DNA of 64,000 nucleotides from an uncultured Deferribacteraceae bacterium (lineage in GTDB: Bacteria; Chrysiogenota; Deferribacteres; Deferribacterales; Mucispirillaceae): the NCBI GenBank assembly GCA_947039395.1, contig CAMQYS010000001.1, forward strand, positions 124,001 through 188,000. Reading direction: 5' to 3'. Numbering within the stretch: position 1 is the stretch's first letter; every line of letters starts with the position of its first letter. Positions 35,914 to 40,897 of the stretch are shown here, in pieces. The notes below the pieces were generated by a model that was not told the DNA's origin, did not search any database, and saw nothing but the letters and a program-made list of their open reading frames with translations. The position numbers were made by a program, and so were the translations under genes.

Positions 35914-37590
35914 TTATATAGGTGATACAAATGTTGTACAGAAATAAAACTCTCTACTAAAATCTAACATATGAAACCCTTCTGCCTTAATATCTTCTGT
36001 CAATTCTAAAACTGTTGACGGGATTGGAGCTATTGAACTCTCTGAATAGTAATATCTTTCATCTTTAATATCTCTTATTGATCTATCAACAACTATTACT
36101 TCAATCTTACTCTTCTGATTTTTAAGAGTATCTGTCAAAACAAGATTGTTATCAATATTTTCAATACCTTTAACTGATGATGGCGTTTCTATATCTGTTC
36201 TACCAACCGATAGATCAATAGATAAACTTCTATTAACTAAACTTGGAGATAATGATGCAAACTCTTGCGTAATATTACCTGCTAATGCAAGATTTGTTAA
36301 ATTCGTTTCATGCTCTCTTACTTCTAACTCTTGCGTATCTACTGCTACCTGTAAATATTTCGCTTCAGCATCTTTTACTGCCAACTCTTTTATCTTTATA
36401 GATGAGACCTCTATACTATCCTTCTCTGTAACACTTTCACTAACTTCAATAACTTTTTTATCTTCTATTACATAGTTACTATATGCAATCATCTCTATCG
36501 TTGACGTATCTAACATATCTATACTACTATATAGATTAATATCGTTACTTATAATATCATTATCGCTGTTTACAAATAATTCCGTTTCAACTTTTTTCAC
36601 TTCTTTTAATACTTCTGCTTTCTCAAACGTTTCAACGATATCTACACTCTCTATATTTTCAAAAGGTTTTACTGCCTCAACAGTTTCTACCGTTTCAAGA
36701 TCTCCAATATCAATATTATCTGCAATATCAACCTTAGTAAATACTCTCTCCAACACTGTAGATTGATCGCTAAACTGCTCTTTATCTATTTTAGCAACAA
36801 CTATATTCTCTGCTACTTTACTATTATCAACTTCAACCAAACTACTATAAATATCTCTCTCATTCATAGAAATATCTCTATAGTTGTTTCGCAATAATAC
36901 TGTTTCTGCAGTTTTATCTGTTACAACTACTCCTACACTCTCAATACTTTCAACAGTCTCACTATCGGTGTTATCAATATTAACCAATATCATATCAGAA
37001 ACTATATCTTGATTAATAACATGTTCTTCATCTTTCACTGCAACTGTTATCTCTTGATCTATATTACCCATATCATCAACAGTTATATAAATATTTTTAT
37101 CTACACTTGAAACATCACTATTATTACTTATTAATAACTCTGTTTCAACTAAATTATTTGAAGTAGATACTATCTTCTGATCTATATTACCCATACTATC
37201 TATAGTAATATAAATATTTTTATCACTACTCGATATATCATTAAGTAGTAAACTATCTTGATCAATATTTAAATCTGCTGTTAATAAATTTGATGGTAAA
37301 CTCTCTTGTGATATAGAAGAGTTAGTAGAGTGTGTGTTAGAAAATGATCTATCTGTTTCTAAATAAACGCTACCTGTTAAATCTCCACTGCGATACATCT
37401 CTATATCACTTAATAAAGATAACATTTCAAGATTAATAGAATTTAACTCTACACTAGATGAATTAGTAGAAACTAATGATTGATTATCTTCTTTAGGTAT
37501 AAGATCATTACTACTTATTGTAACCAACCATAACGGAATAGTCACAACTGTACCTAATACAAAAATTGTTATCATATGTCTTATAACCAT
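35914..37590 (-). CDS. Repetitive acidic membrane-anchored protein of unknown function
   Basis: A 558-residue protein not recognised as any family. Residues 6-26 form one membrane helix or uncleaved signal, then about 530 residues rich in Ser, Asp, Glu, Val and Ile. The unit DKNIYIT-D-MGNIDQ occurs twice (about residues 123-140 and 165-182), and shorter relatives with IYSS or LYSS occur near 250 and 360. The E-V repeats suggest extended or coiled structure. GAAGG lies nine bases before the ATG. It follows cheZ by 41 bp on the same strand, so it may be part of the motility cluster. Confidence 0.6.
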   Translation of the reverse strand: MVIRHMITIFVLGTVVTIPLWLVTISSNDLIPKEDNQSLVSTNSSSVELNSINLEMLSLLSDIEMYRSGDLTGSVYLETDRSFSNTHSTNSSISQESLPSNLLTADLNIDQDSLLLNDISSSDKNIYITIDSMGNIDQKIVSTSNNLVETELLISNNSDVSSVDKNIYITVDDMGNIDQEITVAVKDEEHVINQDIVSDMILVNIDNTDSETVESIESVGVVVTDKTAETVLLRNNYRDISMNERDIYSSLVEVDNSKVAENIVVAKIDKEQFSDQSTVLERVFTKVDIADNIDIGDLETVETVEAVKPFENIESVDIVETFEKAEVLKEVKKVETELFVNSDNDIISNDINLYSSIDMLDTSTIEMIAYSNYVIEDKKVIEVSESVTEKDSIEVSSIKIKELAVKDAEAKYLQVAVDTQELEVREHETNLTNLALAGNITQEFASLSPSLVNRSLSIDLSVGRTDIETPSSVKGIENIDNNLVLTDTLKNQKSKIEVIVVDRSIRDIKDERYYYSESSIAPIPSTVLELTEDIKAEGFHMLDFSREFYFCTTFVSPI

Positions 37591-37630: not shown

Positions 37631-38542
37631 CTAATTCAAACCAAAATCAGATAATAATGTTTTTACATCATCACTATCATCTTTCTTAGGCAAACTATTG
37701 AAATGCAGATATCCAACTAGTGAGCCTAATGCTGTACCTATCTCACGCATTGATAACATTACTTTACGTAATTTCTGCTCTGTTATATCTTGAAACTCTA
37801 AACTTTCTAAAACCCTTAATCCCATTGTATCAACCTTACCTATAACAGAATCAATAGCATCTAAACGATTATTTATAGCAACAATATCACTATTTCTTAA
37901 TGCTGTTTTTAACTCCAACGTGTAAGCAGAAATTAATTTATAGTAATCAAGTAACGTTTCTGTTGATTGAACAAGGTTAGTTATCGCATCATCAGTAGTT
38001 CTATTAACCGATACTAATGAAGTCATTATATCTGGAATAGAACCTCTTGTTTCTGATACAGTAGGATTAATCTCATCCATCTTCATCTTTAATTCAGATA
38101 TTAATTTTAATAACTCTCCAACCTCACCTTTAACATTGAGTGAACTGTTATCTACCTTCTCACCTGATATAATTTTTTTAGCAGCTAATTTAAGATCTTC
38201 TACTGACATATCTTTAAAAACATCCTTATTTATATCTACTTCTTCTCTATTCTGATGTAGATCTTTTTTATCTAAACTATTATGTTCTATGTCAAACATT
38301 TCAACAGATTCAGTTAAGTTAATTATATCTAAATTATCTGTTGAAATATTATCAATATTATAAGTTTCATTATCTAACTCTTTTAGAACATCTTCTTGAT
38401 AGATATAATTATCGTAATAATCATCGCTACTGTGATATCCATCATCGCCGTAATCATCTATCTGATAATCATCGGCATGAAGTGATACTGCTGCATGTCC
38501 AGTAATCTTATTATCTGCTGGTACCTTATCTATATCTAACAA
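37631..38542 (-). CDS. cheZ: CheZ-type CheY-P phosphatase, probably made as an extension of CheW
   Basis: Removes phosphate from CheY to reset the flagellar switch. The catalytic signature FQDITEQ contains D252 and Q256, the acidic residue and glutamine of CheZ, four apart on a helix. The chain ends DDVKTLLSDFGLN, matching the CheY-binding tail. Residues 1-110 are an acidic, Tyr/Asp-rich linker. The listed start is a TTG without a ribosome binding site. The frame is open upstream for 32 more codons (to 38638) into the ten-A run that ends cheW; no ATG or GTG occurs there. A -1 shift in that run would fuse it to CheW as a protein of about 700 residues. Confidence 0.85.
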   Translation of the reverse strand: MLDIDKVPADNKITGHAAVSLHADDYQIDDYGDDGYHSSDDYYDNYIYQEDVLKELDNETYNIDNISTDNLDIINLTESVEMFDIEHNSLDKKDLHQNREEVDINKDVFKDMSVEDLKLAAKKIISGEKVDNSSLNVKGEVGELLKLISELKMKMDEINPTVSETRGSIPDIMTSLVSVNRTTDDAITNLVQSTETLLDYYKLISAYTLELKTALRNSDIVAINNRLDAIDSVIGKVDTMGLRVLESLEFQDITEQKLRKVMLSMREIGTALGSLVGYLHFNSLPKKDDSDDVKTLLSDFGLN

Positions 38543-38633
38543 ACTATCTGCTGTATCTAATAGAACATCTACTGTGTCTAATAAACGGATACTTGTATCT
38601 ACTAAACTATCATCTAAATTATCATAAACTTCA

Positions 38634-38657
38634 GTTAGTTTTTTTTTTCTAAATCCT
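38634..38657 (-). promoter_or_regulatory. Candidate programmed -1 frameshift or slippage site joining cheW to cheZ
   Basis: On the minus strand G, ten A's and C are followed by the cheW stop TAA (38635-38637). The last seven bases before the stop are A_AAA_AAC in the cheW frame, a canonical -1 slippery heptamer. AGGA (38654-38657) lies 9 bases upstream, like the stimulatory Shine-Dalgarno-type element of the dnaX frameshift. The -1 frame then continues as CTA ACT GAA into cheZ. A one-base sequencing error in the homopolymer is the main alternative; in that case cheW and cheZ are simply one gene. Confidence 0.75.
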
Positions 38658-39732
38658 GACGTTTCTTCTTATTAAGTTCCTCTGTTTCTTTCTCTCTCAT
38701 ATTAAGTTCTTTAGATATTAAAGAATCTAACTCATCTTGTGAAACGTGGACCATCTCTTCTATACCTGATTGAGATACAGCATCAGCTAAAACATCCTCA
38801 ACCGAACCACCTCTACGTTTAACATTTAAAGCATCGGTTTCTTGCTCTCTTGCTAATAATTCAGCAGCTATTAAATCATCTATACTTGCCGATTCTGTAT
38901 CATCTACTGGTAATGAAGGAGCAACTACAGGAGTAGATTTCTTCTCTTTATTCAGTTGATCAGTTTCTAGCTCTCTCTTCTTCAACTCTTCTATTATCGC
39001 TTGATCTATATCTAGATCAGCAACAACATCCGCTTCTTCAGGAGCTGACGCACTACTTTGTTGAGAAGAACTTTGAACAGTTGCTGTTTCTGAAGTTTGA
39101 GAAATATCTTGAACAGCTTTAGGTTTAGTATCAGAACCGTTAGAAGATTTTTTATCAGCTCCTATTACAGGTTCACTTGCTTTACCTTTTGTAGAACCTT
39201 TTGCTTTATTACCCTTATTGCCTAACATGATTTTTCTAAGATCACTATCACCCATATTATTGCCATCTTTTAATACTCTATCAATATCAAGTATCATAAC
39301 AAGTCTCTCATCATATCTACATATTCCTAATATGTACTCTTGTCCAACGGAGCCTACAAGTGGCGGAGCAGGTTCTATCATCTCTTTAGTAACACGAATA
39401 ACTGCGGTTACTTCATCTACTACAAAACCTATATTACTTCTATCAAAACGTACAACAATTATGCGTGTTGTTTGATCAAAATCATGACTGCTAAGATTAA
39501 ACTTTACCCTTAAATCCATTACAGGAATAACTTTTCCTCGTAAATTCATCACACCTAATACATAGTCGTCCAAACGTGGGACAACAGTTATCTCTACAGT
39601 TTTTATTATTTCCTGTATCTTCAAAACATCAATTGCATACTCTTCATCACCTAGCTTCATTCCGACAAGTTCGATTATATCAACTTCGCTATCTGAATTG
39701 TAACTTTCGGACAAATCAAAAATCTGTTCCAT
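38635..39732 (-). CDS. cheW: CheW chemotaxis coupling protein with a repeated C-terminal tail
   Basis: Links chemoreceptors to the CheA kinase. Residues 15-160 are the CheW domain: VGMKLGDEEYAIDVLKIQEI, VPRLDDYVLGVMNLRGKVIP, and RFDRSNIGFVVDEVTAV. A Ser/Lys/Thr-rich linker follows, then three copies of a motif of the form EL-RE-ETD-LN-K-R (about residues 240-262, 285-307, 330-355). The ATG has GGGG six bases upstream. The frame ends at a ten-A run, where a shift would continue into cheZ. Confidence 0.92.
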   Translation of the reverse strand: MEQIFDLSESYNSDSEVDIIELVGMKLGDEEYAIDVLKIQEIIKTVEITVVPRLDDYVLGVMNLRGKVIPVMDLRVKFNLSSHDFDQTTRIIVVRFDRSNIGFVVDEVTAVIRVTKEMIEPAPPLVGSVGQEYILGICRYDERLVMILDIDRVLKDGNNMGDSDLRKIMLGNKGNKAKGSTKGKASEPVIGADKKSSNGSDTKPKAVQDISQTSETATVQSSSQQSSASAPEEADVVADLDIDQAIIEELKKRELETDQLNKEKKSTPVVAPSLPVDDTESASIDDLIAAELLAREQETDALNVKRRGGSVEDVLADAVSQSGIEEMVHVSQDELDSLISKELNMREKETEELNKKKRQDLEKKN

Positions 39733-39769: not shown

Positions 39770-40654
39770 CTATAATTTAAGAAGTATTTGATCGCGTATA
39801 TCATCTATACAACCAACTACATCACTCTCAGGATGCCTCGTATAGTAAGGCTGAAGTAACTTTATTGACTCACTTATATCCTCATCATAAGGAATAAAAC
39901 CCAATTTCTCTACACTAATATTTAAATACTTTTCAACAACTGATGAAAAACCATGAAATACATTTAACTCTCTTTTATATTTTACCATATTTAATATCAT
40001 ACCTGGTCTAAAATATTCTATAAACGATTCTATCGTTGCTGCCATCTTAGGGTCTATCTTCTTAGCTAAATCAACGATAGACTGAACAGATGGAAAGTTC
40101 ATACTCTTACTTCGAAGCTTCTTATTCATATCTTCAAAATCCCATCTATTTGCTAACAACCTTTCTATATGCCTAAATATAGCAACTTTTAGAAAACCAT
40201 ACGCATTCTCTATAGATGTAGGCTCTCCACTCATTATAACTATCTTTTTATCAGCAACATTAAATATATCTATCATATTAAAACTTGTTCCAGCACCTAG
40301 ATCCATAATAACATAATCATACGATGATGATTTTAAATTGGTAAGGATCTTCATCTTCTCATACTTAGATATATTAGCCATACCTAATACATCGCCTGAA
40401 CCACCAACAAAATCTATACCAGCTGGAGATTTAACAATAACTTCATCTAACTTTGCTTTGTCTCGTATAAAATTATATAAACTTACACCAGGTATTTTTA
40501 AGCCTACGAAATTATGCAGGTTTGCTCCACCTAAATCAATATCTACTAGCAACACTTTATGTTTTAAGGATGAAAGTGATATCGCTAGACTAGATGAACA
40601 AAAACTTTTACCAACACCACCTTTACCAGATGCTATTGCTACCAATTGCGCCAT
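39770..40654 (-). CDS. flhG: FlhG/FleN-type MinD-like ATPase
   Basis: A ParA/MinD ATPase that sets flagellar number or placement, together with FlhF. The 294-residue protein has deviant Walker A KGGVGKS (11-17), LLVDIDLGGANLHNFVG, and IMDLGAGTSFNMID. I chose the ATG at 40652-40654 with GGGG ten bases upstream; the longer TTG form includes that site. It leads into cheW 37 bp downstream. FlhF is not in this window. The alternative, a cell-division or chromosome ParA, is less likely given the chemotaxis genes. Confidence 0.82.
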   Translation of the reverse strand: MAQLVAIASGKGGVGKSFCSSSLAISLSSLKHKVLLVDIDLGGANLHNFVGLKIPGVSLYNFIRDKAKLDEVIVKSPAGIDFVGGSGDVLGMANISKYEKMKILTNLKSSSYDYVIMDLGAGTSFNMIDIFNVADKKIVIMSGEPTSIENAYGFLKVAIFRHIERLLANRWDFEDMNKKLRSKSMNFPSVQSIVDLAKKIDPKMAATIESFIEYFRPGMILNMVKYKRELNVFHGFSSVVEKYLNISVEKLGFIPYDEDISESIKLLQPYYTRHPESDVVGCIDDIRDQILLKL

Positions 40655-40897
40655 ATCTAAATTACCCCGTAACAAAAACTTAATTATTTGTAACTAATAA
40701 CTAATATATAAAATTAAGACTTATGATATAGTAATATAATTGTTTTGTCTATATTATTTGATACTATCGTACAAAATAGAAAATAATTTACTTATCTATT
40801 AATTTATAAAAAAATAATCTATATAAGTCTGACTGAAATATCTACACTCTTATATTGTTTCACATAAAAACAAATCATAAATAAATATAACAGTAAA

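Follow-up and report, generated by a model that had tools for sequence, protein, structure and literature searches.

The locus raises the question of how a chemotaxis gene that stops directly after a run of ten A's relates to a second open frame just beyond it, which lacks an obvious start of its own and is shifted by one nucleotide. It lies on the minus strand of the window, the whole 64-kb stretch of DNA analysed here, which comes from a draft genome of 2.1 Mb in 64 contigs. The two proteins concerned have well-known roles: CheW couples receptors to CheA, and CheZ dephosphorylates CheY-P. The features of the locus are as follows.

39770..40675, minus strand: MinD/FlhG-like ATPase gene, upstream; a neighbour kept in relatives
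38635..39732, minus strand: cheW frame of 365 aa, consisting of a CheW domain and a tail with two repeats, with TAA immediately 3' of the A-run
39265..39669, minus strand: CheW domain, residues 22-156 (PF01584, E=7.6e-39)
38824..38901, minus strand: CheW tail repeat 1, DTESASIDDLIAAELLAREQETDALN, kept in nearly all relatives
38671..38748, minus strand: CheW tail repeat 2, HVSQDELDSLISKELNMREKETEELN, resembling the FliM/CheZ CheY-binding peptide
38639..38648, minus strand: A10, candidate slippage site, phase GAA AAA AAA AAC; run kept in relatives
38635..38637, minus strand: TAA stop of the CheW-only product, as read from the sequence
37631..38638, minus strand: -1 frame 3' of the run, comprising an acidic linker and CheZ, 335 codons plus stop (assessed by dN/dS)
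37634..38140, minus strand: CheZ domain of 169 aa (PF04344 via relatives; profile match to E. coli CheZ)
37775..37789, minus strand: CheZ catalytic motif DITEQ (DxxxQ), aligned to E. coli CheZ, with the same D and Q in all 29 sequences
37634..37678, minus strand: C-terminal peptide DSDDVKTLLSDFGLN, by alignment the counterpart of the CheY-binding tail of E. coli CheZ

Reading of the minus strand gave CAG GAT TTA GAA AAA AAA AAC TAA as the 3' end of cheW (T10 on the plus strand), in agreement with the initial annotation, which had described an end of the form G-A10-C-TAA with the heptamer A_AAA_AAC in frame. The upstream frame is identified as a CheW coupling protein by its Pfam match (PF01584). 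The -1 frame is open from stop to stop across 345 codons (38668..37631), 335 of which follow the A-run, and the first start codon within it is a TTG that lies 32 codons in and has no Shine-Dalgarno (SD) sequence, again as had been annotated. A search of the linker and the -1 frame for an independent CheZ start with a well-placed SD sequence found none; the sole SD-like sequence ahead of a start in the linker is an AAGGA, and the ATG it precedes by 13 nt lies immediately 5' of the CheZ domain. Directly 3' of cheZ, window positions 35914-37590 (minus strand) hold an ORF of 558 aa, acidic and of low complexity, with a hydrophobic stretch at its N-terminus; a Pfam search returned no match for it.

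The identity of the downstream frame was established with the help of relatives. Searched by itself, the window's CheZ ORF had no match in Pfam; PF04344 matched all 29 CheZ domains taken from the relatives and the window, the window's own included. A profile made from the relatives matches E. coli CheZ (1kmi_Z, E=4.7e-10) and aligns both FQDxTxQ and the C-terminal CheY-binding tail, and all 29 sequences share the Asp and Gln of DxxxQ. With the PF04344 match and the DxxxQ pair that mark a CheZ phosphatase both present, the -1 frame is, as far as its sequence tells, a genuine CheZ. It is also under purifying selection in the window's genus, as judged from dN/dS, which is 0.10-0.14 for CheZ and 0.22-0.33 for the linker 3' of the run. 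The DxxxQ pair, the C-terminal CheY-binding peptide and the PF01584 domain are shared with E. coli CheZ (PDB 1kmi) and CheW; unlike in E. coli, a long linker bearing repeats of the FliM/CheZ type here connects CheZ to CheW.

Most genomes of the order Deferribacterales encode CheW and CheZ in a single open frame of 524-735 aa. The junction was readable in 41 genomes (38 in which a single piece carries both domains, plus G003, G012 and G029, each affected by a contig end), and every one of the 41 has a run of at least ten A's there. Fusion of CheW and CheZ extends to family f10, which is more distant; two of its three genomes have A10 at the junction, one of them at 56% GC, and G049 of this family is fused yet has no A-run. 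Fused genes commonly read GAA AAA AAA AAT GAN at the junction, such that one extra A brings an immediate TGA, and stops lie in both shifted frames shortly 3' of the run. The window's genus (four genomes of four, G000-G003) instead carries GAA AAA AAA AA[C/T] TA[A/G], with CheW as the default product and CheZ in the -1 frame. Access to CheZ requires a -1 shift in these four and in G024 and G045, and a +1 shift in G017 (A11, TGA) and G041 (A14). G042 (L112) has an A11 junction resembling the -1 cases, after which an A9 and an in-frame stop disrupt the linker and CheZ; this downstream break may be another slippage site or an error in the draft. The comparison with relatives that the initial annotation had proposed thus finds the A-run and the -1 frame conserved in the window's genus, and relatives with a separate, well-started cheZ and no run, which it had named as counter-evidence, were not encountered. 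Its central claim, that a CheW of 365 residues is made alongside a CheW-CheZ fusion reached by a change of frame, gains support from the relatives, in which the two are one protein and the run is conserved.

We propose, with a probability of roughly 0.78, that programmed transcriptional slippage at the A-run makes both CheW and CheW-CheZ. RNA polymerase moving along the T10 template would add or drop A's and so generate a mixed pool of mRNAs. Within the window's genus, transcripts with ten A's would yield CheW with a lysine-rich tail, while those with one extra A would lead into the -1 frame and yield a CheW-CheZ protein of about 700 residues. Where the fused state is the default, faithful transcripts would give the fusion and slipped transcripts CheW. 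Selection would then keep the mixture of products, whichever of the two is the default. Both the occurrence of slippage and its ratio are what we infer from genome sequences, which for the window's genus are metagenome-assembled.

The strength of the run as evidence depends on the scale at which it is considered. The A10 at 38639-38648 is the sole A10 in the 64-kb window, where dinucleotide shuffles predict 2.0, and since about 2.0 are expected per window its presence alone is unsurprising at that level. Genome-wide statistics, drawn from a pattern search and sampled loci, gave nine distinct A10 runs in the 2.1 Mb window genome and between 1 and 14 in each of 15 sampled genomes (1.6-3.2 Mb); for genomes of the order with a readable junction the total is about 3-14. 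Calculated from the genomes' other runs, the number of A10 runs expected by chance in the linker is 0.0003-0.003 per junction, and about 0.002 for the window. Among the fused genes, the frame reached by an extra A stops no more than 9 nt after the run in 11 of 11 order-level genera. The null for such prompt stops, 0.14-0.46 of comparable linker positions per genus, gives a product of 2e-6, and retention of the run, with the amino acids and the codon use of each gene taken into account, gives a product of 2e-7 over 12 genera, with the most permissive member taken from each; these products overstate the case because they treat related genera as independent, and their direction is consistent. The junction therefore has a homopolymer of at least 9 A/T in the coding frame that is kept beyond codon needs, together with alternative frames that yield defined products (a prompt stop or a functional extension), the two properties looked for in transcriptional slippage.

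Programmed -1 ribosomal frameshifting on A_AAA_AAN, which would join CheW to CheZ during translation, is the alternative that survives best, and we consider it unlikely. E. coli dnaX uses this mechanism, with A_AAA_AAG, an SD-like element and a stem-loop, and the initial annotation had read AGGA and A_AAA_AAC at the window's junction as a signal of that type. The likeness extends to the A-rich slip site and to the AGGA, which is indeed present upstream of the run in the window. The slippery heptamer is in frame at most sites, the window's A_AAA_AAC included, so that -1 ribosomal frameshifting could take place at those sites, and G024 and G045 carry A_AAA_AAG. The proposed signal is nevertheless poorly conserved. 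AGGA lies 5 nt 5' of the run in G000, G002, G003, G015 and G034 but is missing from the congener G001 and from most relatives, and the last base of the heptamer varies between C, T, G and A (AAT in G003; AAG, AAT or AAA in other relatives). Downstream RNA structure was not found in the window's genus (z about 0), and weak folding in some family f6 genomes, with scattered z values of -2 to -3.9, did not amount to a consistent signal among relatives. Neither the upstream element nor the downstream structure of E. coli dnaX is conserved at cheW-cheZ. What is conserved, a unit of at least ten A's, exceeds the needs of a heptamer, with GAA retained at the junction where GAG is common. The direction of the shift is not constant either: -1 in some genomes and +1 in others is not expected from one ribosomal mechanism, the +1 evidence coming from two genomes (G017 and G041). 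Transcriptional slippage, which the initial annotation had mentioned as an alternative, appears to be the better fit, being favoured by the conserved length of the homopolymer, the variation in the last base, the existence of -1 and +1 lineages and the exchange of default frame.

Further evidence bearing on the mechanism comes from a second gene. A10 runs elsewhere in the sampled genomes are few, and dnaX, the classic example of a gene with transcriptional slippage, recurs among them, with A9 or A10 near codon 400 in most of the Deferribacterales. In the window's genus, dnaX of each of the four genomes (L192, L193, L194 and L195) is interrupted at A10 in just the same manner as cheW-cheZ: a stop lies four codons past the run in the default frame, and the -1 frame adds a conserved 156 aa. 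This speaks to phase variation at the DNA level, whereby replication slippage at the homopolymer would switch cells between CheW-only and fusion states. Long homopolymers are hypermutable and the default frame does differ among lineages, as would suit such switching, but the frame and the A10 length are identical in the four congeners and all 10 g3 genomes also have A10 at the junction. Moreover, the same device is borne by dnaX, an essential gene that should not be switched off. We accordingly regard phase variation as improbable. Still less credible is an assembly error or an ordinary break, with the genome truly in frame or CheZ separately started or a pseudogene: the 64-contig draft and the genus-conserved ATG just before the CheZ domain could be cited for it, but the same A10 break occurs in four genomes of the genus at about 80% protein identity, a comparable break is found in the single-contig genome G041, a dN/dS of about 0.1 argues against CheZ being a pseudogene, the linker 5' of that ATG is also protein-conserved in the -1 frame, and the spacing of the ATG from its SD-like sequence is poor.

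Precedents exist for transcriptional slippage of the kind proposed. Slippage at an A9 in Thermus dnaX is reported to be transcriptional, with half of the product short (PMC1088944, citing Larsen et al. 2000). The Thermus thermophilus gene resembles cheW-cheZ in being a cellular gene with a long, late A-run, two products with a shared N-terminus and closed frames after the run (PMC1088944), and the device itself also sits in dnaX of the Deferribacterales genomes studied here. The two cases differ in gene and pathway; in cheW-cheZ the default frame alternates by lineage and the shift adds a whole enzyme domain. Transcriptional frameshifting has also been described at an A11 ahead of a stop in Citrobacter tssM (PMC4256274). 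There too, in Citrobacter rodentium, the run abuts the stop, slippage restores the full length and both forms are needed (PMC4256274); tssM slippage is reported in two species, whereas the cheW-cheZ arrangement is order-wide and occurs in both default states. Dual-output slippage as a kind is therefore known, while the gene, the order-wide conservation and the alternating default frame appear to be new within the literature searched. The papers searched gave no description of CheW-CheZ slippage and did not use CheW-CheZ as a term, and the recoding papers among them mentioned neither CheW nor CheZ.

A tree of CheW and CheZ indicates that the fused or split state changed at least four times, at least three of these changes being forced by well-supported branches. 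The A-run was retained through every such change wherever CheZ is intact. Where CheZ is altered or absent, the run has gone: G037 (L107) has CheW and CheZ in frame with a degraded CheZ motif (EHSSEVDG, no DxxxQ), while CheW occurs without CheZ in two genomes of f9 and in a paralogue on a second replicon of G028 (L121). Judging from these genes, loss of pressure on CheZ accompanies loss of the run. If the slippage reading is true, programmed slippage in chemotaxis is conserved across an order and probably further in the phylum, and the annotation of a gene as fused or as split is of little consequence, since both products come from the polymerase; gene callers would then be misreading the locus as fused only or as broken. 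A wider reading, to which we give somewhat less than even odds, is that a bidirectional slippage switch as old as the phylum sets the fraction of array coupling protein that bears the CheY-P phosphatase, and possibly tunes it under conditions affecting slippage by RNA polymerase, with the default frame drifting and only the mixture under selection.

If slippage occurs as proposed, the product is a natural CheW-CheZ fusion, a single polypeptide that combines coupling and phosphatase functions and is made in a proportion determined by the run. By its domain content, the fusion would tether a CheY-P phosphatase to the receptor array. All eight genomes tested have CheX, so that CheZ is not necessarily the sole phosphatase; the whole-genome Pfam search for CheZ was insensitive, missing the window's own CheZ in G000, which may thus have further CheZ copies. 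Other CheW-type proteins are found in most relatives.

The tail of CheW contains two conserved copies of a repeat ahead of the run, with the consensus [IL]D[DAS]LIAxELxKREAETxELN, and family f10 has three or four copies. The repeats resemble the CheY-binding peptides of FliM and CheZ. Repeat 2 (SQDELDSLI) is similar to the N-terminus of the FliM encoded in the same genome (LSQDEIDALL) and to the C-terminus of CheZ. The tail repeats may bind CheY-P, and given the likeness of repeat 2 to the FliM and CheZ peptides, both products may hold it. Several genera (L077-L087 of g2 and g3, L096, L108, and L110-L115 of f6) have a second run of A9-A11, which lies 3' of tail repeat 1 and about 170-210 nt 5' of the run at the junction.
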